Source: Candidatus Obscuribacterales bacterium (GTDB lineage Bacteria; Cyanobacteriota; Vampirovibrionia; Obscuribacterales; Obscuribacteraceae). Taken from it: a stretch of DNA of 64,000 nucleotides. The DNA is taken from positions 124,001 through 188,000 of the forward strand of contig JAKFVQ010000025.1 of NCBI GenBank assembly GCA_021732085.1, in the 5' to 3' direction. Made by a program: the position numbers and the translations under genes. Positions 1-48,939 of the stretch are shown here, piece after piece. A model generated the notes under the pieces. It saw nothing but the letters and a program-made list of their open reading frames with translations, did no database searches and was not told the origin of the DNA. The stretch's first letter is position 1. Each line of letters starts with the position of its first letter.

Positions 1-3000
1 GGATTGATCTGCTTGAGGGAAGCACTTCCATTGCGAGTCAAGACAATCTCTTGTCCTGGAACGAGTGCAACAGAGTGGCTGCCGGAAACAAATTTGACGT
101 CACCAGTGCTGTCATCCGTTAGGTTCAAAACCGCCACATCGTTGCCAGTTTCAAATACTAGAGCGGCTGAACCTGCGGTGATACTCACATCACCTTCGTG
201 CGTGCTTACTAGAATGTTGGATGTAGGCGCAAAGAAAACAGTACCTTTATCGAGAACAAAATGCTGCCCACCACTTGCCTTACCATATGAAATGCCCTGG
301 CCGCCCAAGCCGGCTAAAACTTGATTATCGAACTGTGCATCAAAGAACATCGCAACATTGTTATTATTGCTGTTCATCGAAACCCCACCTCTATAAATGA
401 GCTGTTCATCCGCCTGTTCAAGGTCTGATGTAGCCGCGGACTTGCCACGAGACTTTGTTAAATCGGTGGGCACCAAATCATTCGTTATATACAGATTGGG
501 AAGAGTCGCGATTAGTGGCAACGACACCTGCACAGTCTCGGACTGGATCGTCGTCGGTTGGGTAGCGCTCGTCACTACAGGCGGCGGTATGAACTTAGTG
601 AACGTCTCAGTCCCGGCCGCGCCAGCAAGCCCCGGCGTGCCACCCTTTCCAGCAGCGCCAGAGCTCCCAGCTGTACCGCCAGATGCAGTAACAGAAGCCG
701 CGGAACTACCTGCGCCACCAGAACCCCCAGAAGACCCAGCGGCACCGGGACTGGTGCCAACACTGCCAGTAGTACCAGTTTGCCCTGATGCGCCAACCGA
801 AAAGCCTGTGCCTCCTTTCCCTCCTGCGCCACCGGCTCCAAAAAGACCTGTGCTGCCACCATTGTCACCGCCATCGCCACCGTCACCGCCATTGCCACCA
901 TCTCCCGTAGCACCGGCAAGGCCGAAGCTTGAGCTTCCACCAAAACCAGCGGAGCCACCTGCTCCACCGGCGCCGCCAGAGCCTCCCGCTGGAGTAGAAC
1001 CGCCCCCTCCGCTTCCGCCGCCACCACCGCCGCCAGCACCGCCACCACCACCGCCGGCACCGCCGTCACCTAAAGTTCCGCTCCCTCCGGCGCCACCGGC
1101 TCCACCGAATCCACCGACGCCGCCTTTGCCCCCTAAATCTCCAAACGCTCCAGCGGCCCCGCCGCTTCCACCAGTTCCGCCTTTGCCGCCCACGCCGCCG
1201 CCGCCACCGCTGATACCGGAAGCTCCAGCGCCGCCATCTCCACCGGCACCACCGGCACCACCATTGTAACCGTCACCGCCCAAAGCAAATGAGTTTGCCC
1301 CAGTCCCGCCATTCCCTCCGGCTCCGCCAGAGCCGCCAACGCCTACAACACCACCATTGCCACCGAACCCAGCGCTACCGCCAGATCCTTTGGAGCCGCC
1401 TTTGCCACCAAATCCATTTGTTCCCCCAGCAAGATCAACAGTTCCAGACTTCAAGCTCACCGCTGTCACGTCAAGAGTACCGCCGCTGCCTCCGTCACCG
1501 CCTCGCCCACCTGCGCCACCACTTCCGCCGGCTCCTCCTGAACCACCTAAGCCACCGCCGCCACCGCTCCCGCTAGTCCCGCCAGCACCACCTGAGCCAC
1601 CGCCTGAGCCGTCAGTCCCGGAGGAGGTAGCGCCAGCTCCGCCTTGCCCACCTGCGCCACCGCTTCCGCCGGCTCCTCCAGAACCTCCACTGCCGCCGAC
1701 ACCACCTGTCCCACCAGCACCGCCTGCGCCACCATCTCCGGCGGCACCACCTGTAAGAACGACATTACCCAACTGAACAGTGCCTGTACTTTTGATTTGA
1801 ACGCTGCCAGCCGCTCCGCCTCCAGCACCCTTGCCACCTACAGCTCCTACTCCACCGGCTCCACCGGTGCCACCGATACCGCCATCACCACCGGCGCCAC
1901 CGGCTCCACCTTTGCCACCGGACTGCCCTGGACTGCTTGTAGAGAGCGCATTGGCACCGTCAGCACCGAAGCCCCCGGTCCCACCACTTCCACCTGAGCC
2001 ACCATTACCGCCGCTGCCGCCGGCACCACCAGTGCCTCCGCTGCCACCTTTTCCGCCAGCACCACCGCTTGCAGAAACATTACCTAATTGTATTGAGCCC
2101 CCAGCCGAGATCTGAATATTGCCGCCAGCACCGCCAAACTCACCATCGCTTCCTGAAACACCCGCACCACCGGCACCACCAGTACTTCCAGCGGCTCCTA
2201 CGCCCCCTGACGCACCATTGCCACCAGCACCGCCAGGAACAGCGGCATCGCCCCCCGCGTTGCCGTTCCCGCCGGAACCGCCAGTGCCACCGGAGCCGCC
2301 ATTGTAGCCTAACCCTCCAGCACCACCTACACCGCCGATGCCACCAGCAGCAAGGATCCCACCGGTGCCGCCTGTGCCCCCATTTCCGCCGGCACCTCCG
2401 AGAGGATCACCATTTCCACCGGCACCGCCTGCACCACCGGTACCGCCATTACCGCCACCCTGTCCAGGGAGCGCACCAGAAGCTCCAGGGCTACCAGGTC
2501 CGCCCCCAACACCAGGGCTGCCGTTGGCTGCTGGAGGTAACGGCATAACAGGAATTCCATTAGCTCCGGCCGAACCAAAAGCCCCATTGGCTGCTATATC
2601 GCCCGTCGTTAATGTTCCCCCCGCCGCAATTGTAATATTTCCAGCAGCTGCACCATTAGAAAAGCCATTTGTATTCATGGTACCAAGTGTGATACTGCCT
2701 GGAGCTTGTACGGTTATATTTCCAGATTGGGCCTGGCCTGTTGTGGTAAAAACAGATCCACCAAGATTAATTGACGCACCAGGAGTGGTGACGACACTAG
2801 TATTTGTGGTGAATGAACCTGTGCAGTTGTCGCAGTTCTGATTAGCTTTGTTATAGGTGAATTCATAGCCAGCCGAGAGGAAGATTTGTCCGCCACTGGT
2901 ATTAACCGTTATGGGTCCACCAATAATATTGCCTTTAGCAAGTCCGATGAAATCACTTTGATATCCGGGATTAAAATTTGTCGGTAGAGTGAGATCTCCT

Positions 3001-4085
3001 GATTCATTAACAAAGATCGGATCCCCAAAGAGATTTAGTGATGAAAGCACGAGATTACCTGAACTGACTGCAAATGCCGCCTCGCCAGCTTCTATATTAA
3101 CGCCGCCAGAGACTGAACGAACCCATCCATCTACACGTCCTGTATAGCCGCCGTCCAAATTTAGTTCTTTGGAAAGCCAGTCGCCGCCCGTAATACTCAA
3201 GTTGGCATTCACACCTGGAGTTCCGATTCCAATTACGCCATTGAGAGCCTGGATAATTCCGCTTGTGCTGTCAATCGTAAGATTTTGCGCAATGTTCGAG
3301 GCAAGAAGCGGTTGAAGTATCGAAACGTTGCCAGCAACAGCGGCAATCAGCCCGCTATTAAATATATTGTTGGTCACAAGATTCAAATTATTCGCCGCCT
3401 GCATGACCGGAGATGCTCCGACAATTCCTTGAGGCAGCGCATTAGTGATAGTACCACCAGCGGTGAGACCAAGATTGGCAGAACTAATGATTGTTCCTGC
3501 GTTAACGATATTGTTTGCGGCTACGAGATTCAAATTCAGATTCGAACTGATAAGGCCTCCCGTTTGGTTGAAAATATTCAGCGCCGCGATGCTGGCAGTA
3601 TTTACTGCCGGATTGATTAGATTGACGAGGATAGACCCTGCGTTCGTCAAGTTACCTGTAAGGTTCAGCGCAGAAGCGTTATTCAGAACTGAAACACCCG
3701 AAGGGATATTGATGCTGGCTATGCGACCAGCCCAATTTTGGCTAATCGCCATGCTTCCGCTGATAGCAGCACCACTTGCATCGATTACGATGTTCTGACC
3801 GCCGGTTCGCATAACCTGATAAACAGCAACCATTTGCGAAGGCGTTAACATCTGCCCAGGAAGAACATTTTGCTGCTGCCCGCCGACAGTTATTGTCACT
3901 GGAGATGTTTGCTGGCTAACAGTCGAACTCTGGACGGTTGATGAAAGATCGAGATTGATGGAAGGTGAGGTGGGAGGCAATGCCATTGGGTCGGTTGATT
4001 GGGCTAGCGCTGTTGATGCCGACTTCAGAGCCACAAACATGGATAAGAGAACCGAACTTGTCAATTGATTCTTAGGTTTCTGCAA
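1..4085 (-). CDS. Giant secreted glycine-rich surface protein, C-terminus cut by window edge
   Basis: Read on the minus strand, one frame stays open from a TTG at 4085 to base 1, over 1,360 codons, with no stop seen. GGAG lies 5 nt before the TTG and an in-frame TAG lies further upstream. The product starts with a Sec signal (basic QKPKNQ, a hydrophobic stretch, cleavage near ALA-QS). It continues with about 400 residues of hemagglutinin-like beta-strand repeats rich in Asn, Gly and Ile (LNLTGNLTNAGS, NNIVNAGTIISSANL) and a C-x2-C (NCDNC). Next comes a glycine-rich core of about 650 residues (GGNGGTGGAGG type, like mycobacterial PE_PGRS). After the core is a linker and a FecR-like region (VLDKGTVFFAPTSNILVST, VALVPGQEIVLTRNG). 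It is probably exported or surface-bound. The divergent gene at 4549 is a paralogue with the same ends. Pro-rich open frames on the opposite strand are antisense shadows. The function is inferred; adhesin or matrix protein is only a guess. Confidence 0.85.
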   Translation of the reverse strand, partial: MQKPKNQLTSSVLLSMFVALKSASTALAQSTDPMALPPTSPSINLDLSSTVQSSTVSQQTSPVTITVGGQQQNVLPGQMLTPSQMVAVYQVMRTGGQNIVIDASGAAISGSMAISQNWAGRIASINIPSGVSVLNNASALNLTGNLTNAGSILVNLINPAVNTASIAALNIFNQTGGLISSNLNLNLVAANNIVNAGTIISSANLGLTAGGTITNALPQGIVGASPVMQAANNLNLVTNNIFNSGLIAAVAGNVSILQPLLASNIAQNLTIDSTSGIIQALNGVIGIGTPGVNANLSITGGDWLSKELNLDGGYTGRVDGWVRSVSGGVNIEAGEAAFAVSSGNLVLSSLNLFGDPIFVNESGDLTLPTNFNPGYQSDFIGLAKGNIIGGPITVNTSGGQIFLSAGYEFTYNKANQNCDNCTGSFTTNTSVVTTPGASINLGGSVFTTTGQAQSGNITVQAPGSITLGTMNTNGFSNGAAAGNITIAAGGTLTTGDIAANGAFGSAGANGIPVMPLPPAANGSPGVGGGPGSPGASGALPGQGGGNGGTGGAGGAGGNGDPLGGAGGNGGTGGTGGILAAGGIGGVGGAGGLGYNGGSGGTGGSGGNGNAGGDAAVPGGAGGNGASGGVGAAGSTGGAGGAGVSGSDGEFGGAGGNIQISAGGSIQLGNVSASGGAGGKGGSGGTGGAGGSGGNGGSGGSGGTGGFGADGANALSTSSPGQSGGKGGAGGAGGDGGIGGTGGAGGVGAVGGKGAGGGAAGSVQIKSTGTVQLGNVVLTGGAAGDGGAGGAGGTGGVGGSGGSGGAGGSGGAGGQGGAGATSSGTDGSGGGSGGAGGTSGSGGGGGLGGSGGAGGSGGAGGRGGDGGSGGTLDVTAVSLKSGTVDLAGGTNGFGGKGGSKGSGGSAGFGGNGGVVGVGGSGGAGGNGGTGANSFALGGDGYNGGAGGAGGDGGAGASGISGGGGGVGGKGGTGGSGGAAGAFGDLGGKGGVGGFGGAGGAGGSGTLGDGGAGGGGGGAGGGGGGGSGGGGSTPAGGSGGAGGAGGSAGFGGSSSFGLAGATGDGGNGGDGGDGGDNGGSTGLFGAGGAGGKGGTGFSVGASGQTGTTGSVGTSPGAAGSSGGSGGAGSSAASVTASGGTAGSSGAAGKGGTPGLAGAAGTETFTKFIPPPVVTSATQPTTIQSETVQVSLPLIATLPNLYITNDLVPTDLTKSRGKSAATSDLEQADEQLIYRGGVSMNSNNNNVAMFFDAQFDNQVLAGLGGQGISYGKASGGQHFVLDKGTVFFAPTSNILVSTHEGDVSITAGSAALVFETGNDVAVLNLTDDSTGDVKFVSGSHSVALVPGQEIVLTRNGSASLKQIN
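597..2560 (-). repeat. PE_PGRS-like GGX-GGX coding repeat core
   Basis: These bases encode roughly 650 residues dominated by GGX triplets with Ala, Asn, Thr, Ser and Lys at X. The plus strand therefore reads as imperfect CCACCG/GCACCG arrays. Short beta-strand-like spacers break the array: GGSIQLGNVSASGG near 2090, TGTVQLGNVVLTGG near 1765, and LKSGTVDLAGG near 1450. This gives blocks of roughly 100 residues. Such arrays are prone to slippage and recombination, so copy number may vary between strains or assemblies. Confidence 0.8.
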
Positions 4086-4548
4086 GAGATCTCCAATGCC
4101 GCCACGCGGGCAAGCCAGTTTCCAAACGGTAAGTCTAGGCTATGGTAGCATCCGGCAAAGCCCCATGTCGAAAACATTCCCGACCGTTTCAAAGAGCTTT
4201 CAACAAAGGTGTCCTCGAAAAGCTCACCTGTCACTAACTGCCACCAGTAGCAGCTCTCCACGATTTTCCTGTTTGCTTTTGCAGACTATTTTGCTACACT
4301 CCAATCCAGGAGTTGTTCAGCTCAACATCCGCTAACCATTCGCTGAGCATATTTAGCAGCTTCGCAGACAGTTCGCAAAAATGAAAATGCAGAACGCATA
4401 TTCCCAAGCACAGGCACACCTTCAAGCAAATGCAATTTGATGAATCTAATCCAAAGACCCAGAACAGCCACGCGTATGGAACGAAACGGACCCGAAAGAG
4501 ACCGGTTTTAGAAATACGATGAACGAGGCTAAAATCTGGGGGTCAGAT
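4086..4548. promoter_or_regulatory. Divergent control region between the two glycine-rich paralogues
   Basis: This 463-base gap separates two genes transcribed outward and must hold both promoters. It is AT-richer than its flanks. I see no convincing sigma-70 hexamer pair, operator palindrome or small gene. Open frames inside it lack a ribosome site and recognisable composition. Confidence 0.45.
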
Positions 4549-7500
4549 ATGTCACAGAAAAAATTGTTGTCAGTATCGTTACTGACGTTCGCAACATTCC
4601 TCACGGCTTCATCCATAAGCTTGGCACAGAGTGCAGGCGAGTCATCGATTGGTGGAGCAGCTCCGCAACAGATCAATTTGGATCTCGGTTCGTCAGAAAG
4701 AAATTTGACCGCGGCTCACTTACTCGGAGCCGGCACCGTGAACATAATGGTGAACGGAGGCTCGGTCGCAGTAACGGGACGAACGAGTCTCACTCCGGCA
4801 GAAAGACTTGCTGTTTACCAGGTGGTATCTACCGGCAATCAATCGATCATGCTAGGCGCAAATGGAACTGCCACTGGTGGAACGCTAACCGTTGGATCGC
4901 GATTTAGCGACTTCGTATCGAGCTTGAGCATCCCGCAAGGGGTAAGTGTTCTCTTCGATGCGGCGAAAAATCCAACAATGAATCTTCTCGGCAATCTTAC
5001 CAACGCTGGCGCTCTCTATGCATTTTCAACAAACAGCGAAGTAAGCAGCGCGAACATCTCCGCACTCAACATAATAAACCAATCAGGAGCAGTGCTTTCA
5101 AGTGTGCTGCCGACGGCACTAAGTTCCAACATTGCGAATATCACTTCTGCAACTAATTTGAATCTTTCGGCAGTTCAGAACATTATCAATGCCGGAACAA
5201 TTACAAGCTCCGCGAACCTCTCGCTAAACGCAGGCAATTCCATCATCAATTCGCTGACCTCAGGAAGCAATTCAGTTTCCCTCATGCAAGCGATTGGCGC
5301 ACTGAACATGCAAGCATCAAATATAGTGAATCAGGGTGTGATGGCATCGCTGACAAACAACCTGAATCTATCTACGGCAACCCTGACTAATAGCGGAACA
5401 ATTCAATCCTTGCTCGGTAACGCAAGCATTCAAAATCTTTTGGGGAGCACACTAACAATCAATAACACGCTAGGCGAAATAGCCGCGCGAGACGTGCTGA
5501 ATTTCAGCGCAAGCGAAATCGTAAATGATGCAGTTTCCATGCCTCCAGTTCTTTCGATAGAAGGCGGAACGCTGTCAGCAAGTGCGTTGGCAATGCTCAG
5601 CCCATACGGGGATATAAATCTCGATCTATATAGAATCAACGGCGACCTGCGCATCAAATCAAAAAATGCCAACATTAAAGTCGAAGGCGGTAGCCTCAAC
5701 ATCACGAGTTTAGATCTCAGTGGAGACCCTAGCTTCACGAATGTAACCGGCGATGTAAATCTTGGTCCAGGGCCTACAACACCCGGACTCGCCTCATTCA
5801 ACATTTTTAGTGGCGGTCCAGTCTTCACCACAGGCGGGGCGCTATTCAATGTTAGTGCCGGAGGCGACATTGTCGCGTTGAATGGTGCCGCTGGAACCGT
5901 CGATGCCAGCCTGTTTGGTGGTGTAGGTGGTGCCATAACATTGACAGCAGGAACAGGGCCAAATGGTGGAAGCGTAATTCTCCCGACTGTGAACTTCAAA
6001 ACGAATGGCAACTCTATCCAAATAACAGCTAACGCATCAGGCACAAACGCAGGCACAGTCTCTGTGGGCATATTGAATACATCAGGAGCAGGGGGCGTAT
6101 GCTGCGTTCATGCCGGCGGCACTCCTGCACAGTCAGGACAGAAAGCAGGAAATATCGTTATAAATGCGCCTGGTGGCATCTCAACTGGATCGATTCAAGC
6201 ATTCGGAGGTGGTGGAGCGGGCGGATATTGCTGCGCAGCATCCGGTGGCGCAGGCGGTGACGGAGGCTTGGTCCAGCTAACATCGAATGCCAACATCATA
6301 GTCGGGGGCGAAATCAACACATCCGGTGGCGGCGGTGGCGGACTCTCGGCTTCTCAGATAGCAAGCACATCCGGCGGCAAAGGTGGTAACGCTGGAAACA
6401 TCATCGTCAATACACCGGGCACATTCTTGTCCTTTGGTCCTCTACTTTCTGCAGGCGGTGGCGGCGGAGCAGGAAATACAGTTCCTCCTTGCTGCCCGCA
6501 AGCATACCGGAATGGCGGTGGCAGCTTCGGAGGAGGAGGCGGCGGCGGAGACGTCGGCGCTGGCGGTGGTGGCTTCTACGGTGGCGGCGGATCGCTCAGT
6601 CTCGGATCTGGCGGAGGCGGCGGATTCTTCGGCGGCGGTGGCGGTGACAACGGTCAACCAAGTGGAAGCTTGGGAATGGGAGGCAGCTCAACTGAAGGCA
6701 AAACTCTATTCTTCACAGGCGGTGTTTTCGGTGCTGGCGGTGGCGGTCAAGGCAGCTTTGGCGGCGATGGCAATCTGATCAACAATACTTTTGTAAACCA
6801 AAAGGGCTTCGGCAACGCTGGTGGCGCACCCGGTACCAACGGCAATATCAATATGACGGTAAAGTCGGTGCAAGTAACTTCCACCGTTGGCCAATTCTTC
6901 CCGGGCGCTGGCTTCACTAGCTCTCCATTTGCTGACGTGACAGTATTCGGTAATTACTCCGGTCCCCAGGTAAATATCCCCAGCGGAGGCGTCACTCCAA
7001 CAAATACACCAAGCAGCGTTCCGCTCCCAAGAGAGCAAGTCATTCCGACCGTCGGATTAACCAGTGCGCAAATTGCAGCTCTGTTCGGCGGACTAACTTC
7101 CCTCGACGGATCGCAATCGGGCAGCGTGCGCAATTTTGATACCAGTGGAATTCAGAACGTCACCGATTGGGGACTAAACCTGTCGTCGACGGGTTCAATC
7201 ATTTTGGTAAATGATCAAAAAAACAATAACAGCCTTGCAAGTATACTTGCAGTTCAAGCCACGGGCGTCTCAAGCGTCGGCAACTCCTTGTCATCGGCGA
7301 TGAACAGTTTGGATACTGACATCGGGCAGATCTATGTTGCACTGTCTCGTAGAACAGGAGAAAACTACAAGGCACCAGGTCATGAAGCAAGCGGACTTTC
7401 GCAAAGTGGTCCATTGGTGGGAAGCCTCACGGATCCAATTACGATTTCGATGATCAACGCGCTCTTCACCTTTCTCCAGGTCAGAAATGATCTAGCGGCG

Positions 7501-9222
7501 AAGCAAGCCGCATTGGAAGGACGCTACAGTTGGACCGGCATGGGTTCATATCTCGATGGGGGATTTGGCAGCCTGCCAACTTATGATGGTGGCAACGGCT
7601 TCGTTTCGCTAGCATCCTACAATGAAAGCTACAGCGACTGGCAGAATCGCCCAACTAACAGCACATTCACAGCAGGCACAAATGCAGAGCTGGCGCTGAA
7701 AATACTAGGCGGAGAGACATCCATACTCGAACTGATGGGTGGGGAAGGCGAAGGTCCCTCTGGCGGAAGTGGCGGTAGCTCGGATTCAATCAAATTTGGA
7801 AGATCCACTCAAGGAACTGGGAACGGTGTTCCAGTTAAGTTCACTCCCTACACAAAAACCACCGCAGACGGAAAGGTCGAAACTGGTGTTATTGCAACCT
7901 GGTCAAAGGATGGCTCGGAATACACATTTCCAGGGGCTCAGATCGGTCCGGGAAAACAGGGTCAAGGAAGTAATTTGACACTACCTGGAGGAAAGACATT
8001 CCACATCCCGAAAGGCGGCGGCGCAATAAAATCAGAATCAGGAGCGCCTATCCTTACGCTAAAAGATCCCGCAAACATGACGAAGGGTCCTATCGACACG
8101 TCAACCGGCCCAAGACCGGGAAACAATAATAACGGAAACTCGCAAGGACCGACTGAAGAAACTCAGCAGGTTATTGACGAAGTAAACAGAATGAACACGC
8201 CACCACCAGCGCCGATCTATGATCTTCCGTTTGCTGAAGCATTATCGATGAACAGATTGATTGCTGATGCAGCAGTGGATCAAGCCGCAATGAACTTCGC
8301 TGAATCCATCGACGAAACAGGGCAGCGCAAAGCGACCAAAGGAATTCAACAAGCTGATCAACAGAAGCCTACTCATGCGAGCCGCGGACTCAGAGCATTC
8401 GCACAAAAGCCATTATCACTCCAGCAATTCACTGTTCTAAAAGAAGTGCAAAATCAAAAACGCATTGCGAACGCGATTACTGGGCTAGAAATGGCTGGCG
8501 GCGTCAGCAGCGCCGATTTGCAAGTGAGCCCACTGCTTGCTCGCACACCTTTGCTTCGTCGAAAAGCATTTATAATAGCTGTAGAATTGAAGTCCTCAGA
8601 AAAGCAGAAACAGTATCTGGCCGCACTTCAACAGCGCGGTTCAGATTCCGCAAGTGTCGAACAGGCAACAGCGACGCCGAAAAATTTCTTCCTATGTCCG
8701 ACTTCGAAAATCGAAATCAAGGCGAACGAATTCAAAATCTCCATTGCCGCAGGGTCTAAGGTTCTTCTTTTAAACAGCGGACACAGTATCGGCATCTACA
8801 ATTTGCACGACAATCATCGCGATGACGTCACAATCTCACATGAAGGAAACGCGATCTCTGCCTCACCGGGCAGGTTCATTGTAATTTCCCCTGAGCCGGG
8901 CGAGCTTTTCGAAAGAATAAACCCAGCCCCACCGATTGCTTGCCGAGGCGTAAAAGAGTTACCGTCCAAAAACGGAAGCATTTACACTGGTGAATTCTCT
9001 CCAGTATCCGCATTAGCATCCGTATCTTGCTTGAAGGATTTGGCGCATTCAAATGACGTCAACGACAAGAAGACATATCGCTCACTAGTGAAAACCACCA
9101 TTGCAGTAATGCACATGCAGAAATCCGGTGGTCCTTTTAAGAACGCCACAGCCACTCCGACAGCAGCAAGCCCCTTGCAGAGCAAAGTAATAGCAGAAAA
9201 AATATCAATGCTGGACCATTAA
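4549..9222 (+). CDS. Giant secreted glycine-rich surface protein with FecR-like C-terminus
   Basis: The gene encodes a protein of 1,557 residues. I chose ATG 4549 over 4519 because a G-rich site (GGGGG, 6 nt upstream) precedes it and the protein then begins with a clean signal peptide (MSQKKLLSVSLLTFA to SLAQ-SAG). The N-terminal ~450 residues are filamentous-hemagglutinin-like repeats (LLGNLTNAGALYAFSTN, LNIINQSGAVLSS) and align by eye with the divergent paralogue. A glycine-rich core from about residue 510 to 760 has GGGGG runs and three vicinal Cys pairs (GVCCVHAGG, GYCCAASGG, PPCCPQAY). A Ser/Gly/Pro linker and a mostly helical stretch follow. The C-terminal FecR-like region (LCPTSKIEIKANEFKISIA, then PGRFIVISPEPGELFERIN) matches the end of the paralogue. 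It is probably cell-surface or secreted; the ligand is unknown. No autotransporter barrel or LPXTG motif is visible. Confidence 0.88.
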   Translation: MSQKKLLSVSLLTFATFLTASSISLAQSAGESSIGGAAPQQINLDLGSSERNLTAAHLLGAGTVNIMVNGGSVAVTGRTSLTPAERLAVYQVVSTGNQSIMLGANGTATGGTLTVGSRFSDFVSSLSIPQGVSVLFDAAKNPTMNLLGNLTNAGALYAFSTNSEVSSANISALNIINQSGAVLSSVLPTALSSNIANITSATNLNLSAVQNIINAGTITSSANLSLNAGNSIINSLTSGSNSVSLMQAIGALNMQASNIVNQGVMASLTNNLNLSTATLTNSGTIQSLLGNASIQNLLGSTLTINNTLGEIAARDVLNFSASEIVNDAVSMPPVLSIEGGTLSASALAMLSPYGDINLDLYRINGDLRIKSKNANIKVEGGSLNITSLDLSGDPSFTNVTGDVNLGPGPTTPGLASFNIFSGGPVFTTGGALFNVSAGGDIVALNGAAGTVDASLFGGVGGAITLTAGTGPNGGSVILPTVNFKTNGNSIQITANASGTNAGTVSVGILNTSGAGGVCCVHAGGTPAQSGQKAGNIVINAPGGISTGSIQAFGGGGAGGYCCAASGGAGGDGGLVQLTSNANIIVGGEINTSGGGGGGLSASQIASTSGGKGGNAGNIIVNTPGTFLSFGPLLSAGGGGGAGNTVPPCCPQAYRNGGGSFGGGGGGGDVGAGGGGFYGGGGSLSLGSGGGGGFFGGGGGDNGQPSGSLGMGGSSTEGKTLFFTGGVFGAGGGGQGSFGGDGNLINNTFVNQKGFGNAGGAPGTNGNINMTVKSVQVTSTVGQFFPGAGFTSSPFADVTVFGNYSGPQVNIPSGGVTPTNTPSSVPLPREQVIPTVGLTSAQIAALFGGLTSLDGSQSGSVRNFDTSGIQNVTDWGLNLSSTGSIILVNDQKNNNSLASILAVQATGVSSVGNSLSSAMNSLDTDIGQIYVALSRRTGENYKAPGHEASGLSQSGPLVGSLTDPITISMINALFTFLQVRNDLAAKQAALEGRYSWTGMGSYLDGGFGSLPTYDGGNGFVSLASYNESYSDWQNRPTNSTFTAGTNAELALKILGGETSILELMGGEGEGPSGGSGGSSDSIKFGRSTQGTGNGVPVKFTPYTKTTADGKVETGVIATWSKDGSEYTFPGAQIGPGKQGQGSNLTLPGGKTFHIPKGGGAIKSESGAPILTLKDPANMTKGPIDTSTGPRPGNNNNGNSQGPTEETQQVIDEVNRMNTPPPAPIYDLPFAEALSMNRLIADAAVDQAAMNFAESIDETGQRKATKGIQQADQQKPTHASRGLRAFAQKPLSLQQFTVLKEVQNQKRIANAITGLEMAGGVSSADLQVSPLLARTPLLRRKAFIIAVELKSSEKQKQYLAALQQRGSDSASVEQATATPKNFFLCPTSKIEIKANEFKISIAAGSKVLLLNSGHSIGIYNLHDNHRDDVTISHEGNAISASPGRFIVISPEPGELFERINPAPPIACRGVKELPSKNGSIYTGEFSPVSALASVSCLKDLAHSNDVNDKKTYRSLVKTTIAVMHMQKSGGPFKNATATPTAASPLQSKVIAEKISMLDH

Positions 9223-9336: not shown

Positions 9337-10392
9337 TCAAGGATTTTGGTTTTTCTTATACAAACGCCTTAATCTCTCGATGTCGGCATCTGAAAGCTTA
9401 ATCGTTCCAGCGCCCTGCGTTGAGTAGAACATAATGTCTTTTGGATTTGCCGTATGCCCAACAAGACCTAGCGCATGACCAATTTCATGAAGCGCTGTTC
9501 TTTGGAATTTAGATCCGTCGAGATCAAGACGAAGAGAACCATCACTAAAGGGAGAAATTTGGAACTTGATTAGACAACGCCTCTCATTCCGATCATTGAG
9601 ATAAAACTCGCACTGCCCAGCCTCCGCTGAATTTACGAATTCGATAGGCTCTTGAACAAAGCGACATTCAATATCTGCGTTCTTTGGTTCCGTGACAAAA
9701 GAAAACTCAACTATGCCTTTGGAAGCTGATTGCCATTGTTTGAATGCCTTCATTACGACTAGTTCAAAGACCTTAGAAACAGTATCGATACTGCTTTCCT
9801 TGGGTATAGATCCAATGAAAACCGACAGAGGCATTCGAGTGCGCGTCCATTGTGATTGATCAGGAAGGATTGCCTGACTGGAAAGTTTGTCTTGTTCTTG
9901 TTGCAAACCGTCTCGAAGATTCTTTATCCTATCGAAAAGTTTGTCTTTCGGAAATTTCATCAAAAACTGATCGTAACTACTAATGGCCGATGCTAGATTG
10001 CCACTAGCTTGTTGCACGGATGCCAACATTAGCCAAGACTGGGATAATTGTGGATTGAGTCTCACCGCGCTTTCAAACTGACGGTAGGCCTCATCACTCT
10101 TGCCCAGCCGCGCAAAAACGAGTCCTAAATTGTGATGTGCTTCTGCCAGATCTGGATTGAGCCTAATCGCCTTTCTCAAACTCCGCTCAGCTTCACCGAA
10201 TTTCCGCTCGCGAATCCGAAGCTCGGACTGATCGACCAATGATTCGGCTGTTTTACTTTCGGCAGAGACATCAGATATGGATGCGACAAAAGTTATTGCG
10301 CTAAACGCACCCATGCGAAGAATTCTGCACAACAGAGACGGTGTAATCACCAATAGAACTTCCGGAATGTCCAGACCAAGCCATCTTAGCAA
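9337..10392 (-). CDS. Secreted TPR protein with matrixin-like (metzincin) protease domain
   Basis: The protein has up to 351 residues. Residues ~45-160 are two to three TPR units (AEAHHNLGLVFARLGKSDEA, then RLNPQLSQSWLMLASV). The C-terminal half is a metzincin catalytic domain with zinc site HEIGHALGLVGH (His302, Glu303, His306, His312 from the first TTG) and a Met-turn candidate DIMF (Met321). This is the M10 matrixin pattern and predicts an extracytoplasmic zinc endopeptidase. The start is uncertain. TTG 10392 gives a long N-terminus, while a later TTG or ATG 10314 leaves a compact signal ending DVSA-ES; none has a strong ribosome site. It is divergent from the tandem kinases, so co-regulation is possible. 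I do not see a typical cysteine-switch propeptide. Confidence 0.8.
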   Translation of the reverse strand: MLRWLGLDIPEVLLVITPSLLCRILRMGAFSAITFVASISDVSAESKTAESLVDQSELRIRERKFGEAERSLRKAIRLNPDLAEAHHNLGLVFARLGKSDEAYRQFESAVRLNPQLSQSWLMLASVQQASGNLASAISSYDQFLMKFPKDKLFDRIKNLRDGLQQEQDKLSSQAILPDQSQWTRTRMPLSVFIGSIPKESSIDTVSKVFELVVMKAFKQWQSASKGIVEFSFVTEPKNADIECRFVQEPIEFVNSAEAGQCEFYLNDRNERRCLIKFQISPFSDGSLRLDLDGSKFQRTALHEIGHALGLVGHTANPKDIMFYSTQGAGTIKLSDADIERLRRLYKKNQNP

Positions 10393-10521
10393 CGGAGGAT
10401 TCCCATATCAAGTGAGCAGACAAGGACCAAGAAGCTCATTAACAGAAGAACACACTTTACTTGAGTGAGAATTCAGGATATTGTTGGCCATTGATTGAGT
10501 TTCGGAATGCCGACTCAAAAT

Positions 10522-10535
10522 GGAGCAAAGCGTTG
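10522..10535 (+). promoter_or_regulatory. Ribosome binding site fixing the TTG start of kinase 1
   Basis: GGAG at 10522-10525 stands 7 nt before TTG 10533. An in-frame TTG at 10461 has no such site. The paralogue downstream begins at the homologous residue (its protein starts MEQLKEGLTFENRF, here DRLEQGSTFENRF), which also supports 10533. Confidence 0.65.
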
Positions 10536-12662
10536 GATCGACTCGAACAAGGCAGCACATTTGAAAACCGCTTCGAGATTCTCAGTTTCTTGGGTGGTGG
10601 CGGCATGGGCGCCGTCTACAAAGCAAAACAGCTGGATGCGAACCGAATTGTTGCACTCAAGGTTATGCATCCATCCCTTATTGAAACGGATGAGTTTCGA
10701 AAGCGATTTCTTAGGGAGTGCAAGTTTCTTTCTCAACTATCAAACGATCACATAATTACCTTCTATCATGCGGCAATAAGTGCCAATGGATTTCCTTATG
10801 CTGTTTTTGAATATATGGAAGGCAAAACACTACGGGAGCTTCTGCAAGAAAGGGGAAGACTCAGCGTACCTGAATCACTGAGACTGTTGATTCAACTAAG
10901 CGACGCTTTGGCAGCTGCACACGCAGCGGGCATAATCCATCGAGATCTAAAACCAGAAAACATAATGGTCAGCCAGCGCAGTGCCTCGAGCTGGGCAAAA
11001 GTGTTTGACTTCGGACTATCCAAGAGTTCAATTGCAGACGAACGCGAATCGCAGAAACTCACACTCACAGGTGACATCGTCGGCACAGCCGCCTACATGA
11101 GCCCAGAGCAATGCCGAGGTGGGCGCGCCGATGCGAGATCCGATATCTACGCACTGGGCTGCATTAGCTTTGAATGCCTAAGCGGCAAGCAGCTTTTTGA
11201 AGAAGCCACACCTATGGCGGCATTGCACAAGCATTTGAACGACTATCCGTCAGATTCAATCAACGAACTTTGTTCATTTAGCCCCCCGGCTTTGACCGAA
11301 GTGATTATGAAAATGCTATCGAAGACACCGTCCGGGCGTCCAAACTCAATGAATTCTGTAAAAGAATCCTTCGCGACTGCTGAGACTCAGTTTAAACAGG
11401 GAGTTAGATCTTCAACACCCCTGAGCAACAAACAGACGCGCCGTTCATCAGCAGTTCCTGTTGTGTTAGGAGTTGTCATCCTCGCCATTGCAGCAAGTTC
11501 AATATTCGGATTTCTTCAATACCAAAAAGGACTTGAAGATGCGCGAAAGGTAGAGGAGGATCGCAAAAGAGCGCAGCAGATAGAAATAGAAGAACACAAT
11601 TTGCTGCGCGGACAAGAGCTTGCAGACTTGGCTGGGGCCGCGCTAATAGCCCAAGATTTCAAAGAAGCCATAAGATTAGCAAAAGAATGCGCGAGCTTAA
11701 AAAACGACTCCTGCGAATACATCCCTATTAGGATGAGAGCGTTTGAGATTATGACTCAAGCCAGCGATTTTTCAGGCCTAGCTAATTCTGATGTACCGCT
11801 TATGTTCTGGGGCAAACTTTTGAAAGAGGCCGAGTCAAGAAAGTGCTTGTCCGAGTCCAATAAATACAGATACACTTTTTCATACTACATACTAGCGGGA
11901 AATGTTCACGCCAATAAGAACCGATTGATGCAAACAATCGCATGCTCCGAGGCGTATGAAAAGCTCTACCAAGAGGCCCCTGAGGATCAACGAAAAGCGC
12001 GCCAATTCCTATTGTCTCTGGTTGCGCGGGGAAATGCGCTAAGAAACACGCGCCAGTATCAAAAGGCATTTGAAACTGATAAGCGCGCATTGGCACTTGC
12101 AAAAAAATTGGAAGCCGATGGTGCTGATGAATTGCATTCAGTTTATCCCTCAGTGCTTATTGATTGTTGTGTAGTAAATGAAGATCCAACAAAAGTAGCT
12201 CAACTAGAAAGCGAGTATGCCCAAGCTTTCGAGAAAGCGTTCAATTCTAGTAATTCTGAAGGAATGATGAGGCAAATTCTTTCCATTCAGCAATACATGC
12301 TCGATCGTCCCCAGTTCGCACCGGGCGCGGAGCCCCTGATCCTAAAAGGGTGGAAGGCAGCAGAAATGTTTCCTGAAATTTCTACGGCACTGCGGATGCG
12401 AGCTCTACAGCAGTATCTGCACCTGCAAATTCGGAAAGCACGTTCTGGAGAACTAAGCTCTAAAGTGCTATCCAACGTCGCTTCCAGTTATTTGCAAATC
12501 TTGGAAGAAGCCCAAAAACCTAGCATGGGGAAAGAATATCTGTCGTGCAGGAAAGAGCTTGGCGAGGAACTCGAAGCTCTCCTACTAAAAGATAAACAGA
12601 CCGGAGTGGCTGCCAAAGTGAAGCGAGCTTCGGAAAGTTTTCAACTAGACGGAAAGACTTAG
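10533..12662 (+). CDS. Transmembrane Ser/Thr protein kinase (PknB type), tandem copy 1
   Basis: The gene encodes about 709 residues from the preferred TTG. A full Hanks kinase domain fills residues ~15-285: glycine loop LGGGGMGAVYKA, ATP lysine Lys43 (VALKV), catalytic loop HRDLKPEN (Asp138), DFG (VFDFGLSKSS) and substrate loop GTAAYMSPEQCRG. One membrane helix at ~307-329 (VPVVLGVVILAIAASSIFGF) is followed by a charged coiled coil (KVEEDRKRAQQIEIEEHN) and ~340 helical, TPR-like residues predicted outside the cytoplasm. It should phosphorylate cytoplasmic proteins in response to an external signal. The next gene, 37 bases downstream on the same strand, is a near full-length duplicate, so the two are probably one operon. 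The external domain is not a PASTA domain and I do not recognise it. Confidence 0.92.
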   Translation: MDRLEQGSTFENRFEILSFLGGGGMGAVYKAKQLDANRIVALKVMHPSLIETDEFRKRFLRECKFLSQLSNDHIITFYHAAISANGFPYAVFEYMEGKTLRELLQERGRLSVPESLRLLIQLSDALAAAHAAGIIHRDLKPENIMVSQRSASSWAKVFDFGLSKSSIADERESQKLTLTGDIVGTAAYMSPEQCRGGRADARSDIYALGCISFECLSGKQLFEEATPMAALHKHLNDYPSDSINELCSFSPPALTEVIMKMLSKTPSGRPNSMNSVKESFATAETQFKQGVRSSTPLSNKQTRRSSAVPVVLGVVILAIAASSIFGFLQYQKGLEDARKVEEDRKRAQQIEIEEHNLLRGQELADLAGAALIAQDFKEAIRLAKECASLKNDSCEYIPIRMRAFEIMTQASDFSGLANSDVPLMFWGKLLKEAESRKCLSESNKYRYTFSYYILAGNVHANKNRLMQTIACSEAYEKLYQEAPEDQRKARQFLLSLVARGNALRNTRQYQKAFETDKRALALAKKLEADGADELHSVYPSVLIDCCVVNEDPTKVAQLESEYAQAFEKAFNSSNSEGMMRQILSIQQYMLDRPQFAPGAEPLILKGWKAAEMFPEISTALRMRALQQYLHLQIRKARSGELSSKVLSNVASSYLQILEEAQKPSMGKEYLSCRKELGEELEALLLKDKQTGVAAKVKRASESFQLDGKT

Positions 12663-12699
12663 TGCTATCTTTGTCTTAAGATCTTGGGAGCCGGAAAGG

Positions 12700-14820
12700 T
12701 TGGAGCAATTAAAAGAGGGATTAACCTTTGAGAACCGCTTCCAGGTCCTAAGCTATTTGGGTGGCGGTGCCATGGGTGCCGTCTATAAAGCAAAGCAACT
12801 GGATGCCAATCGCATCGTTGCGCTTAAACTCATCCATCCTTCTCTGATTGAGACTGATGAATTCCGAAAGAGATTTCTTCGGGAATGCAAATTGCTATCC
12901 CAACTTTCCAATGATCACATAATCACCTTTTATCATGCTGCGATTAGCGAACAAGGATATCCCTACGCAGTGTTTGAATACTTGGACGGACAAACTCTTC
13001 GCCAACTTTTGAATGAGAATCGAAAACTAGGCGTCTCTGAAAGCATCAAAATTCTAATTCAAGCTACAGAAGCGCTGCAAGCAGCACACGCACTAGGCAT
13101 CATACATAGGGATCTGAAGCCAGAGAACCTCATGGTCAGTCAGCGACCGGGCACAAACTGGATGAAGGTTTTTGACTTCGGCTTATCTAAGAGTTCCATC
13201 GCAGAAGAACGAGAATCACAAAAGCTCACGTTAACTGGCGACATAGTCGGTACAGCTGCATACATGAGCCCGGAACAATGTCGAGGCGGGCGTGCTGACG
13301 CAAAAGCGGATATTTATGCACTAGGTTGTATCGCATTCGAGTGCCTCACCGGCAAGCCACTCTTCGACGAAGATACGCCGATGGCCGCATTACACAAACA
13401 TTTGAATGAGGACCCCACTGCGCGAATCAATGAATTGTGTTCATTCTGCCCGCCCTCTTTGACAGGACTTGTTTCCGAGATGTTGGAAAAGGCTCCGTCA
13501 CGCCGGCCGCGAAGCATGGCTTCAGTTCGCGAAGCTTTAGTCAAAGCAGAAATGGAACTCAAGGAAGGAGTCTCTTCAACACAATCGAAAAAGATCACAA
13601 GTAAGCACAAATCACTAGCGATTGCTGCCTTCCTAACAGTTACAGTTCTTGTTGCTGCCGGAACAGCAATTTTTGTGAGCTTGCAACACGAACAAAGCGT
13701 GCAGAAAAACAAGCTGGAGAAGAATCGCAAGCGTGCAAAAAAGGCAGTCGAAGAGCAAAAAAATTTCACGCGCGGCTCTGAACTGATCGAGATCGTCCAG
13801 CAAGAACTGGAAGCACAAAATTATAAAAAGACCATAGAATTGGCCAGAGAATGCGCGGACATCAAAAATGACAGCTGCGAATACATGCCGGTCAGGCTTC
13901 GTGCCTACAGAATGTGGGCACAAGCAGCAAACTTCTCAGGTTTGGCAAATCCTGAACCGCCTCTTCAAAAACTGGGCGAACTTGTAAGAGAGTCCGAAAA
14001 TAGACATTGCCTCCCGACCAATGAGCAAAGGAACTGGAAGTTTAGTTATCTGCTTCTGGCGACCAACGTCAATCAAACAAGAGGTAGACACTCTCTGGCA
14101 ATTGCATTGACGGAAGAGTTTGAACGATTGCACAATCAAACGCCGGAGGATGAAAAGCAAAAGCTTCAGTTTGTTTTGACTATGATCAGCCGCGGTCACG
14201 CCTATAGAAATTCCAAACAATACGACAAAGCAGTAGCCACAGATCAAAGAGCACTGAAACTTGCCAAAGAATTGAAAGGGGATGGGGCTGATTTGATGCA
14301 TTCAATTTATCCCTCTTTATTTTTCGACCTCGGCATAGGGAAGGTAGACAGAGACAGCGCCAAAGAATTAGTAGACGAATACTCCAAGGCTTTCGAGGAA
14401 CATTTCAACTCTGCCAATTCGGAAGGAATGATGCGGTCGATGCTTGCAGCCCAAGACAACATTCTAGATATTCCGCAACTTGTGGATGTAGCTGGTCCTA
14501 TGATCACAACAAGCTGGCGAGCAGCTGAAATGTTTCCAGAGATTTCCACTCATTTGCGCATGCGATCCCTACAGCAACTTTTACACTTACGGATCCGCGA
14601 GGCTAAAGACGGAAAGATCGATCCAAAAACGTTGCGCAGTATAGCAACTAGTTATTTGCGTATCTTGCACGAAGCCACGGGCCCCAGCCTAGGACCATCC
14701 TATTTCGGATCGCGTGATGAACTTGCAGCGGAGTTGGAAGCACTGCTGAGCAAAGACTCGCAGGCAGCTTTAGCAAATAAGGTGAAACAGGCGAACGAGA
14801 GCTTCCGTTTTGATAAGTAA
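12700..14820 (+). CDS. Transmembrane Ser/Thr protein kinase (PknB type), tandem copy 2
   Basis: The protein has 706 residues from TTG 12700, with GGGAG 9 nt upstream and a purine-rich GGAAAGG directly before the start. The order matches its upstream neighbour: glycine loop LGGGAMGAVYKA, Lys43, HRDLKPEN, VFDFGLSKSS, GTAAYMSPEQCRG, one membrane helix (IAAFLTVTVLVAAGTAIFV), a Lys/Arg/Glu coiled coil and an external helical domain. The kinase halves are nearly the same by eye. The external domains keep landmarks such as ECA(S/D)(L/I)KNDSCEY and FNS(S/A)NSEGMMR but differ more, which fits duplication followed by sensor divergence. Phosphorylation of, or dimerisation with, the neighbour is possible but not shown by sequence. 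Confidence 0.92.
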   Translation: MEQLKEGLTFENRFQVLSYLGGGAMGAVYKAKQLDANRIVALKLIHPSLIETDEFRKRFLRECKLLSQLSNDHIITFYHAAISEQGYPYAVFEYLDGQTLRQLLNENRKLGVSESIKILIQATEALQAAHALGIIHRDLKPENLMVSQRPGTNWMKVFDFGLSKSSIAEERESQKLTLTGDIVGTAAYMSPEQCRGGRADAKADIYALGCIAFECLTGKPLFDEDTPMAALHKHLNEDPTARINELCSFCPPSLTGLVSEMLEKAPSRRPRSMASVREALVKAEMELKEGVSSTQSKKITSKHKSLAIAAFLTVTVLVAAGTAIFVSLQHEQSVQKNKLEKNRKRAKKAVEEQKNFTRGSELIEIVQQELEAQNYKKTIELARECADIKNDSCEYMPVRLRAYRMWAQAANFSGLANPEPPLQKLGELVRESENRHCLPTNEQRNWKFSYLLLATNVNQTRGRHSLAIALTEEFERLHNQTPEDEKQKLQFVLTMISRGHAYRNSKQYDKAVATDQRALKLAKELKGDGADLMHSIYPSLFFDLGIGKVDRDSAKELVDEYSKAFEEHFNSANSEGMMRSMLAAQDNILDIPQLVDVAGPMITTSWRAAEMFPEISTHLRMRSLQQLLHLRIREAKDGKIDPKTLRSIATSYLRILHEATGPSLGPSYFGSRDELAAELEALLSKDSQAALANKVKQANESFRFDK

Positions 14821-33660: not shown

Positions 33661-35877
33661 CTACCCGCGATTCAAGTCATAACGGTCATTGTTCATGACC
33701 TTGGCCCATGCGCTAGCGAAGTCTTGCACAAACTTTTCCTTGGCGTCATCCGCAGCATAGACCTCGGCTACTGCGCGCAGCTCGGAATTTGAGCCGAAGA
33801 GCAGATCCACAGGGCTTGCTGACCATTTGACCTTGTCGGTCTTCCGATCGCGTCCTTCGTACACGGTCTCATCGCCGGCAGACTTAGTCCACTTTGTCGA
33901 CATATCCATCAAGTTCACAAAGAAATCATTGCTCAATGTGCCGGGGCGCTCAGTGAGCACGCCGAGTTTTGAACGCCCTTCATTAGCATCAAGCGCGCGC
34001 ATGCCTCCAACCAAAACTGTCATCTCAGGAACGGTGAGATTCAATAGATTGGCACGATCCACTAACATCTCTGCCGGTGAGCGCAAATTTGACTTGGCGA
34101 AATAGTTGCGGAAACCGTCGGCAGTTGGTTCCAATACAGCGAACGAAGTAACATCAGTTTGTTCCTGAGTTGCGTCGGTTCGTCCTGGAGCAAATGCCAC
34201 TTTTACTGAATGTCCGGCCTTCTTTGCTGCATCCTCAACGGCCGCATTTCCAGCAAGAACAATCAGATCAGCCATTGAAATTTTCTTTCCAGAATTCTGG
34301 CTGTTAAATTCAGTTTGAACTTTCTCAAGACTGCTCAATACCTTTCCGAGATCGGAAGGATCGTTTACCGCCCAGTCTTTCTGAGGTGCCAAGCGAATTC
34401 TGCCTCCATTTGCACCGCCCCGTTTGTCCGATCCGCGAAACGTAGCAGCAGAGGCCCAAGCAGTCCTTACAAGATCAGAATTCGAAAGTCCGGCAGCAAG
34501 TATTTTTGATTTCAGCGAAGAGATGTCTGCGTCATCAACCATTTTATAGTCGGCGCTAGGAACTGGATCTTGCCAAATGAGTACTTCTTTCGGAACTTCT
34601 GCCCCGACATAGCGAGAACGAGGACCCATATCTCTGTGCGTTAGTTTGAACCAGGCTTTGGCAAATGCTAACTTAAACTCTTCCGGGTTTTCTTTGAATC
34701 GTTTTGCAACTTTGCTGTACTCAGGATCCATTTTCAAAGCGATGTCTGTGGTGAACATCATCGGAGCATGCCGCTTGTTCTTATCAAATGCGTCCGGAAC
34801 CATATTGGGCGCAGCATTATCCTTTGGCGTCCATTGCGTAGCGCCGGCTGGGCTCTTTGTTTGAACCCAGTCAAAATTGAACAAATTATTCAAGTATTGC
34901 ATTGTAAAATTCACGGGCGATGCGGACCAAGCACCTTCTAGTCCGCTCGTGATTGCATCTGCACCGCATCCAGTACCAGCCTTGCTCACCCAACCAAAGC
35001 CTTGTTCTTCCAACGATGCACCAGCCGGTGCCGGCCCGCATTCTGCTTTATGTGCGCCGTGAGCTTTTCCGAATGTATGGCCGCCAGCGATTAACGCTAC
35101 GGTTTCCTCATCGTTCATCGCCATGCGTCCGAAGGCCTCACGAATATCCTTGGCTGCAGCCATTGGATCAGGATTGCCATTTGGACCTTCCGGATTGACG
35201 TAAATCAGTCCCATCTGCGTTGCCGCCAAGGGTTTTTCGAGCTGACCATCTTTTACGTTTGTGGACATGAATTTAGCACCTGGTCCCCAATAAATCAGGT
35301 CAGCTTCCCAGGCGTCGGGCCTCCCGCCAGCAAAACCAAAAGTCTTGAATCCCATAGTTTCAAGAGCAACGTTGCCGGTAAGAACCATCAAGTCTGCCCA
35401 AGATAACTTTTGTCCATATTTCTTCTTTACCGGCCACAAAAGCCTGCGTGCTTTATCCAGATTTGCGTTGTCGGGCCAGCTGTTCAGGGGCTCAAAGCGC
35501 TGTTGTCCACCACCGGCGCCACCACGTCCATCGAAGATTCTGTAGGTGCCGGCGCTATGCCAAGCCATGCGAATGAAAAACGGACCATAGTTACCAAAAT
35601 CAGCCGGCCACCAATCCTGTGATGTCTTCATTACAGTTTCGATGTCTTTCTTCACAGCGTTCAGATCAAGCGTTTGAAATTCCTTGGCATAATTAAAATC
35701 TTTGCCTAACGGGTCAGACTCAATCGCATTCTGGCGTAAAGGCGAAAGGTCCAACTGATTGGGCCACCAAAACTGATTCGCCCGTGGTGCTCCGTCTGCC
35801 CAAGCGGGCAAGCCAGACAAAATCATCGAAGCAACAGCGGTTTGAATAACCAATGCATTCGTTATTCGTTTCATCAT
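33661..35877 (-). CDS. katG: Catalase-peroxidase with an export signal (KatG)
   Basis: The protein has 738 residues; ATG 35877 has AAGGA 8 nt upstream (ATGATG, either possible). This bifunctional heme enzyme removes hydrogen peroxide. The distal site [14 protein letters not shown] gives Arg103, Trp106, His107. The cross-link partners are Tyr226 ([11 protein letters not shown]) and Met252 (RMAMNDEE), and the proximal ligand is His267 ([10 protein letters not shown]). The C-terminal half is the usual degenerate second domain. The first ~27 residues form a Sec signal ([19 protein letters not shown] to PAWA-DG), so the enzyme is probably periplasmic, which is less common. No PerR or OxyR box is evident upstream. 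Confidence 0.95.
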
Positions 35878-46819: not shown

Positions 46820-46968
46820 GAGAGCTTGGACGGTGCACCGCTATTCTGAGTCGAAAGACTACTGAAAGAAACAGCGACTTTAATTGCACCGAACAAAGTA
46901 GGTTAAACCTCAGCTTTGATTCAATTAGTGTCCGCAGATCGAAATACTGTGGCCTTATAATTTTGCCA

Positions 46969-48939
46969 ATGGAAAGAGACGCGGAATCACATGTCTCGTC
47001 GCTGCAGAGCGACGACGGTTTGGAATCATGCACAGAAAAGCGTGACCAAGCCTCGATTTCGCCTGGGCAAATTATTGGTGGCCGCTACAAAATCATTTCG
47101 GCTCTCGGTTCGGGTGGAATGAGTGTCGTCTACAAAGCGAGTCATTTAACACTTAATCGCCCAGTCGCTCTTAAGATACTCAATCGTCACTTCATCCCAG
47201 GAAGCTCCGCAAGTGAAAGATTTCAACGCGAAGCACTGACCGTAAGCACCCTGGATCATCCCAATATTGTGAAAGTCTTTGGGGTTGGAAAGATTGGCGA
47301 TGCTCCGTTCATGGCAATGGAGTTGCTTGAAGGCCAGAGTCTTGCAGATCTATTGAAACGACAAGGACGTCTTTCTCAGGAACAAGCGCTCCCCATTTTT
47401 TGCCAATTGCTTGATGCATTAAAGCATGCACACGAGAAATCCATTGTTCATAGAGATCTTAAGCCAAGCAATGTCTTTCTTTGCCAGAACGCTAAAGTTG
47501 TGAAATTGCTGGATTTCGGCATTGCGAAAATCGCTGGTGATACCGGAAGCGGTGCACAAAAACTTACAGCAACAGGGGAGATCTTCGGCACACTAACTTA
47601 TATGAGCCCAGAACAGTGCTCCGGAGCGAAAGTGGACTATCGCTCGGATCTCTACTCAATGGGTTGCTTGATCTATGAGGTTCTGGATGGACACCCTCCA
47701 TTTCGTGGAGACACGCCTTATGCAATTATGGCTCAACACACCAATGGGCACGCAGCTTCAAGTGCCTTCATTGACGAATCGGTAAGAGAAGTAATCCTCT
47801 GGGCTATGGAGAAAGATCCCTCGGATCGCCCACAATCAGCCGCTGAGTTAAAACGCGTTCTTCTCGAACCAGCTTTATTAGCGAGGAAAGAAAAAGCTCC
47901 CCCCAACGGAAGGAATCCACTACTTCCGACGATATGTGTGATAACTATTGGCGCGCTCCTTGCTTGTTTCATAGCTTTGAAAACCACACACAAAGACCCC
48001 GTCTTGACCACGAAGAAGGTTTCTGCCAAATCAACCACAAAGGTTTCCATTACCGCAACCCTGCTTCATGCTGCGGAGAAAGCCAATGATTCGGTAGCTT
48101 TCAGCCCTGAAGAACTGAAATCGTCCATTGCAGATCTTGATCAACTAGCAACGAGCAGAAAGTGCTCTCGTGTGCAAAAGTACGCAGCAACTTTTATCAA
48201 GTATCTGATCGAAAAGAGGATGAACACTTCAAACACGCAACTGCTCGAAACACTGACGGCGTGTCTTCCGATGACGTATACAAAAGATGGAAAGCCAACA
48301 AAGGAAACTGGACTCATTGAGATCTACCAGGCGCGCACTCTCAATTCCGATGGACAGGGCGTTCAGGCTTTCCAAACAGCTCAAAAATGCGTCGAGACTC
48401 TCAAACGAAAGCCAGTGACCATGGAAGGAATCCCTGATTCATTACGACTGGTGAAAAGCAATTCCAGTATTCGCGATCCCTATATGCTTTTAGCCGAGCT
48501 CGATGGACGCCGGGGCGAATACGAAGATGCTCTTAAGTACGCAGATTTAGCTTATGAGAATTCAATTTCAAATCCGTACTGGCGCTTTGATGCCTTGAAA
48601 ATTAAGTTAGGCATCTTGTTAAAGATGAAGAAGAACACTGAAGTGGAAAATCTACTCCGCGCTGAAATGAGTGCGGCGGAAAAATATGTGAACCTTCCTA
48701 GCTCCAGCCAGCATGACATTCGTCATGGAATAAGAAGCTTTGCTCTCATCGGACAATGGGCGTTTGAACAAGGCATTCTACCAATTGCTAGATCCGCATT
48801 TGAAAGTGAGCGCGACATCGCCACAGAAATAGGTGGATTTGAGGACCTTCATCGCGAAGCCGTAGACTCACTAACAAAGCTCGATAAATATTCCAAAACA
48901 GCAAAGGCTGAGACAATTCATCTGACCGCGAGCAATTGA
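46969..48939 (+). CDS. Transmembrane Ser/Thr protein kinase with external TPR-like domain
   Basis: The protein has 656 residues from ATG 46969 (a TTG at 46963 is in frame). Numbered from the TTG: a 30-residue acidic leader, then a Hanks kinase with ALGSGGMSVVYKAS, Lys71 (VALKIL), HRDLKPSN (Asp165), LLDFGIAKI and GTLTYMSPEQCSG. A membrane helix lies at ~320-340 (LPTICVITIGALLACFIAL). About 310 external residues follow, with TPR-like pairs near the end (MLLAELDGRRGEYEDALKYA). It is more distant from the tandem pair at 10.5-14.8 kb than those are from each other. The external domain differs as well. Confidence 0.9.
   Translation: MERDAESHVSSLQSDDGLESCTEKRDQASISPGQIIGGRYKIISALGSGGMSVVYKASHLTLNRPVALKILNRHFIPGSSASERFQREALTVSTLDHPNIVKVFGVGKIGDAPFMAMELLEGQSLADLLKRQGRLSQEQALPIFCQLLDALKHAHEKSIVHRDLKPSNVFLCQNAKVVKLLDFGIAKIAGDTGSGAQKLTATGEIFGTLTYMSPEQCSGAKVDYRSDLYSMGCLIYEVLDGHPPFRGDTPYAIMAQHTNGHAASSAFIDESVREVILWAMEKDPSDRPQSAAELKRVLLEPALLARKEKAPPNGRNPLLPTICVITIGALLACFIALKTTHKDPVLTTKKVSAKSTTKVSITATLLHAAEKANDSVAFSPEELKSSIADLDQLATSRKCSRVQKYAATFIKYLIEKRMNTSNTQLLETLTACLPMTYTKDGKPTKETGLIEIYQARTLNSDGQGVQAFQTAQKCVETLKRKPVTMEGIPDSLRLVKSNSSIRDPYMLLAELDGRRGEYEDALKYADLAYENSISNPYWRFDALKIKLGILLKMKKNTEVENLLRAEMSAAEKYVNLPSSSQHDIRHGIRSFALIGQWAFEQGILPIARSAFESERDIATEIGGFEDLHREAVDSLTKLDKYSKTAKAETIHLTASN

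Follow-up and report, generated by a model that had tools for sequence, protein, structure and literature searches.

Among the closest described counterparts of the proteins reported here are the TpsA exoproteins (FHA, HMW1, HxuA and EtpA), large exported beta-helical proteins in which an N-terminal capped beta-helix starts the fold. Two other systems resemble them in part: FecR (PF04773; anti-sigma factor structures 4m0h/4m0n), whose fold recurs in the beta domain of a C-terminal block, and the PE_PGRS proteins of mycobacteria, which share a (Gly-Gly-X)n repeat style, in composition only. Very large open frames are also known from the huge proteins of Planctomycetota and Omnitrophota, likewise little-studied lineages (PMC11573180, PMC10066038), whereas the giants described here form one homologous family with defined ends. 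Their hosts, the Obscuribacterales, form a lineage within the phylum Cyanobacteria that does not photosynthesise (PMC4040986). The main text of the huge-protein survey makes no mention of Cyanobacteria, Melainabacteria or Obscuribacter (PMC11573180). In literature accessible without subscription, we found no paper linking Obscuribacter with adhesins or Melainabacteria with filamentous haemagglutinin, and nothing on the surface biology of uncultured Obscuribacterales, nor any experimental results for these proteins.

We analysed a stretch of 64,000 nucleotides (hereafter the window) within contig C6 of a draft Obscuribacterales genome (4.79 Mb, 33 contigs, 70% complete). A preliminary description had noticed two giant secreted paralogues diverging from each other at its left end, here called L and R (Table 1), and closer analysis bears this out. 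The L frame stays open from TTG 4085 (minus strand) past the edge of the window and reaches a natural stop 234 bases outside, so a stop in the left frame, which would have spoken against the description, is absent. A GGAG Shine-Dalgarno-like site precedes the TTG. The close L orthologue in a related genome (G002) shares that site and has GTG in place of the TTG, which lends support to so unusual a start. In R, the better start is ATG 4549, with GGGGGTC directly upstream. Both proteins begin with Sec-type signal peptides, ending in ALAQ and SLAQ, respectively, and lacking a lipobox. We saw no clear membrane span beyond the signal peptide in either, and neither matched Pfam or NCBIfam at E<=1.

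Table 1. Features of the divergent L and R genes, in window positions.
Feature	Position	Strand	Details and basis
Left giant exported protein gene (L)	1..4085 + 234 bases past window edge (L002:4766-9085)	-	Open frame, 1,439 aa complete
L C-terminal FecR-like block	1..245 (first part only in window)	-	Residues ~1281-1439
L glycine-rich core, (Gly-Gly-X)n stretches	516..2585	-	Residues ~501-1190; triplet autocorrelation, rung motifs, faster divergence
L N-terminal block, N-capped beta-helix (predicted)	2886..3965	-	Residues ~41-400; row 2 of fold-prediction alignment
L signal peptide	3999..4085	-	Residues 1-29, ending STALAQ; sequence and hydrophobic stretch
Shared upstream region between L and R	4086..4518	.	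433 bp
Right giant exported protein gene (R)	4519..9222	+	Open frame from ATG 4519, 1,567 aa; likely start ATG 4549
R signal peptide MSQKKLLSVSLLTFATFLTASSISLAQ	4549..4629	+	Sequence and hydrophobic stretch
R N-terminal block, predicted beta-helix with helix LTPAERLAVYQVV in cap	4666..5868	+	AlphaFold2
R glycine-rich module	5959..6918	+	Residues ~481-800
R variable stretch	6919..8655	+	~25% identity to Ca. Obscuribacter sp. MP5IB2 orthologue
R C-terminal block, FecR-like beta domain and three helices	8656..9150	+	AlphaFold2, PDB fold search

Other genes in the window include one adjoining R that fuses TPR repeats to a matrixin-type (Peptidase_M10) domain (9337-10392, minus strand). At 10461-14820 and 46963-48939 (plus strand) lie three Ser/Thr kinases, of which two are close paralogues next to each other. 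A catalase-peroxidase-like protein (33661-35877, minus strand) has a signal peptide by eye at its start and is possibly exported.

The two proteins are homologous at both ends, far beyond chance. In composition-adjusted BLASTP, L5-402 aligns with R13-443 at 36% identity (E=1e-43) and L1250-1433 with R1360-1541 at 27% (E=3e-15), so the end alignment proposed as a check on the relationship upholds it. Smith-Waterman scores agree: 629 for the N ends, against a shuffle mean of 127 (maximum 164), and 169 for the C ends, against 37 (maximum 57). We refer to these regions as the N block and the C block.

Homology of the ends does not make the two genes a special, recently formed pair; they are distant paralogues and not sisters. 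A recent tandem duplication was considered and discarded, an L+R clade being rejected in the N-block tree (AU p=0.0096) and, marginally, in the C-block tree (AU p=0.042). Nor is the divergent pair a conserved arrangement: G002 carries the L orthologue with no R partner beside it, and other genomes have tandem or convergent sets. One such locus (L166, JAIEOQ01) holds tandem copies, two N-block proteins and a third protein with a C block; another (L150, JAIEQI01) holds a convergent family pair that is 77-84% identical at both ends.

Searches for the two blocks turned the pair into members of a large family. The 4.79 Mb genome itself holds 16 N blocks and 28 C blocks; both ends occur together in 13 proteins, and contig ends truncate another three N blocks. 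Stop to stop, the frames of these 13 proteins span 1,457, 1,467, 1,590, 1,643, 1,694, 1,895, 2,729, 2,975, 3,057, 3,282, 5,588, 8,247 and 12,580 residues, and N-block frames together sum to ~52,000 residues, or ~156 kb, which is 3.3% of the assembly. Among 40 relatives, the N block occurs in 21 genomes and the C block in 25, with up to 37 N-block copies in one genome (G010) and frames of up to 15,561 aa. The preliminary description had anticipated a modular exported family of this lineage, with conserved ends around differing cores, and had proposed profile searches and copy counts in relatives; both the proteins of this genome and those of the relatives fit that expectation.

Every relative bearing either block belongs to the family of the window's genome or to a second family of the Obscuribacterales. 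In a separate draw of 292 genomes from the phylum, each block was found in none of the other 291, only the window's own genome matching. Phyla beyond this one were covered only by a pattern-based scan of the GTDB species collection, which returned 47 loci, labelled Obscuribacterales, Obscuribacter or Melainabacteria where a label was given, with one exception. These loci were found with the wider alignment as query; the R N block alone gave no match. The exception (L147, SBAT01000379.1) carries the label Chloroflexi: its N block lies on a contig of 8.8 kb, which may be misbinned. Within the genomes sampled, both blocks are found only in the order Obscuribacterales, and L and R belong to a large family of exported giants that is real and specific to this order, and whose two end domains we could assign to no Pfam family. 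We found no neighbour that is common to the family loci and points to function or secretion; histidine kinases recur at 10 of the 47 loci and Ser/Thr kinases at 6, both being large families.

We modelled the N block with AlphaFold2 from 44 aligned sequences. The model is a capped beta-helix of high confidence (pLDDT 93.0, pTM 0.91), the cap helix being formed by LTPAERLAVYQVV. Foldseek against the PDB placed TPS secretion domains at ranks 1, 3, 4 and 20, all of them weak matches: the best was HxuA (4i84, E 0.044, probability 0.84), HMW1 (2odl), EtpA (8cpk) and other beta-helix adhesins followed, and TM stayed at or below 0.38 throughout. No N block among the 44 matched the Pfam TPS domain (PF05860) at E<=1, and no other Pfam family was consistent across them; the block gave no match in a PDB sequence search. 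A search of a viral fold library yielded no reliable match. The hemagglutinin-like N-terminus read from the sequence by eye is thus right in kind, by fold and through weak TpsA neighbours, but not by profile.

That fold raises the question of whether the family consists of true TpsA exoproteins that have diverged past profile recognition and are exported by an unrecognised Omp85-type TpsB. The predicted N-terminal capped beta-helix and the ranks of the HxuA, HMW1 and EtpA secretion domains speak for such an origin. Against it, besides the missing PF05860 match, stands a search of eight genomes for the TPS profile and for partners: neither PF05860 nor ShlB was found in any, although the positive controls for both were silent too, which makes this search weak. 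Controls did ring for Omp85 and POTRA_2, and here one full-length Omp85 protein was found per genome where there was any, and in most genomes a single gene accounted for both the POTRA_2 and the Omp85 matches; G010, with its 37 N blocks, had no match to either. A dedicated TpsB for the family is unlikely in light of these searches, which for the window's own genome cover an assembly 70% complete, and we regard descent from TpsA as rather unlikely as well. The family further departs from TpsA in its conserved C-terminal FecR-like block and its much larger set of paralogues.

Between the ends, the cores differ in length and composition. The L core is 41% glycine, with ~610 Gly-rich residues in (Gly-Gly-X)n triplets and a triplet autocorrelation of 0.59 at lag 3. 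The Gly-rich stretch of R is shorter: at the threshold applied it amounts to 131 residues, distributed over ~R481-800. The first estimates had been ~650 residues for L and ~250 for R. Calling the left core PE_PGRS-type holds for its repeat style, but L and R have no PE domain (no Pfam match at E<=1) and their ends are different. Beta-rung motifs break the L Gly stretches at residues ~481, 654 and 759 (3 against 0.01 in shuffled sequences); they also exceed shuffled expectation in R and most other cores, and the 12,580-residue member has 20 against 0.55. Because rung motifs recur in the cores above shuffled expectation, the beta-helix of the N block probably extends through the cores, Gly-rich stretches lying between its rungs.

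Orthologues show how the cores change. L is 85-90% identical to its G002 orthologue over most of the N block and the C block, while in the core identity falls to 57-68%, with ~15 short indels. dN/dS is 0.049 for the N block, 0.184 for the core and 0.043 for the C block, ratios that are rough as synonymous sites are near saturation. Judged from this alignment, substitutions and short indels account for the divergence of the L core, which is under purifying selection. The suggested diversification by repeat change is supported in a corrected form: the L core changes faster, and we saw no core expansion or swap in this pair. R presents another mosaic: against the orthologue in Ca. Obscuribacter sp. 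MP5IB2, a member of another genus, its N block is ~46% identical, its Gly module 66% over 314 residues (84% in R601-700) and the stretch that follows ~25%. At E<=1e-12, that orthologue was the only other family member to match the R Gly module.

Cores of paralogues within the genome match one another over short lengths only, for the most part close to the C block. Across 32 full-length members, similarity of the N blocks correlates weakly with that of the C blocks (Spearman 0.15; 18 of 500 Mantel permutations reach that value), which fits partly independent histories of the two ends. Domain swapping between members is suggested by this correlation, with no single swap proved, and the earlier idea of swapped cores is to that extent suggestive only. 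The best candidate was a swap between L and the C12 paralogue, which share 53% identity in their C blocks; as a clade of the two is not rejected in the N tree (AU p=0.166), we do not claim it.

The C block was modelled from 27 sequences as eight strands, a hairpin and helices (pLDDT 87.3, pTM 0.84). Searched against the PDB by fold, its top three matches were FecR-type (4m0h/4m0n, probability 1.00), with modest E-values of 0.01-0.025, aligning over ~80 columns at an rmsd of 2.7-3.3. None of the 27 C blocks matched PF04773, and no other Pfam family was consistent among them; the genome's only PF04773 match lay in a different gene. The C-terminal block had been called FecR-like from the sequence, and the label stands by fold but not by profile. 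It also differs from FecR in an extra beta-hairpin, a three-helix tail ending K.AA....VT..HG.Y, and its position at the C-terminus of exported proteins. PDB sequence matches of the C block were to designed proteins, and we judged them spurious. In the C tree (32 members), a supported branch (98/90) separates a group with VRN..E..GRRR-like sequence from a larger LNLHD-like group.

Position tells more about the C block. In 25 of its 28 places it ends within 34 residues of the C-terminus, and in 3 it is not terminal; C blocks that lack an accompanying N block occur in smaller proteins, of which most carry a signal peptide. One belongs to a hybrid histidine kinase (L075:1854-5588:-; G000:C17:48353-52087) with HisKA, HATPase_c and receiver domains. 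We take the C block to be an extracytoplasmic module because it is flanked there by the signal peptide on one side and the kinase's only transmembrane segment on the other.

Such a placement, together with the FecR-like fold and the recurrence of histidine kinases as neighbours, would also suit a C block whose chief task is signalling, reporting the state of the fibre to envelope regulators, among them the kinase with its own C block, as FecR does for FecA, with the giants as ligands or receptors. Only one of the 28 C-block places in the genome is in a kinase, however, and kinases are large families generally, so we hold a mainly signalling role to be quite unlikely. Weapons of predation or contact-dependent killing, long secreted proteins that deliver an effector, are very improbable: size and a predicted beta-helix stalk recall CdiA-type proteins in outline only, but the C-terminal block is conserved rather than polymorphic, and no family of toxins or peptidases turned up in L, in R or in the part of the 12,580-residue member that was scanned (9,999 residues), which held no reliable Pfam domain of any kind.

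We favour, as the probable explanation, that L and R are order-specific, Sec-exported, beta-helical Gly-rich surface fibres held by the C block. On this account, the family would comprise filamentous surface or matrix proteins specific to Obscuribacterales that cross the outer membrane. The N block would form the capped beta-helix and start the fold, and the core would add beta-helix rungs and Gly-Gly-X stretches, giving a fibre whose length and surface vary by paralogue. At the extreme C-terminus, the C block may bind a common envelope ligand and so retain the fibre at the cell. Many differing paralogues could then equip the cell with a varied set of such fibres for attachment or aggregation. 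Against this account stand the absence of any recognised export machine for proteins of such size in the searches above, the weakness of the N-block Foldseek matches, the 3 C blocks away from the C-terminus and the lack of a shared functional neighbour at the family loci.

A more specific proposal, which we put forward tentatively and with some doubt, is that Obscuribacterales need no dedicated TpsB to display their giant beta-helix fibres and rely on a lineage-specific envelope retention or sorting module, the FecR-like C block, which would make this a previously undescribed surface-display system. In this genome, that block is common to ~25 exported proteins of very different sizes and to a sensor kinase. 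Proteins of 5,000-15,000 residues raise the question of export without a recognised partner porin. If the fibre account is true, ~3% of the genome (~156 kb of open frame) encodes one surface-fibre family, and two domain families absent from Pfam would serve as handles to find, count and test such proteins.
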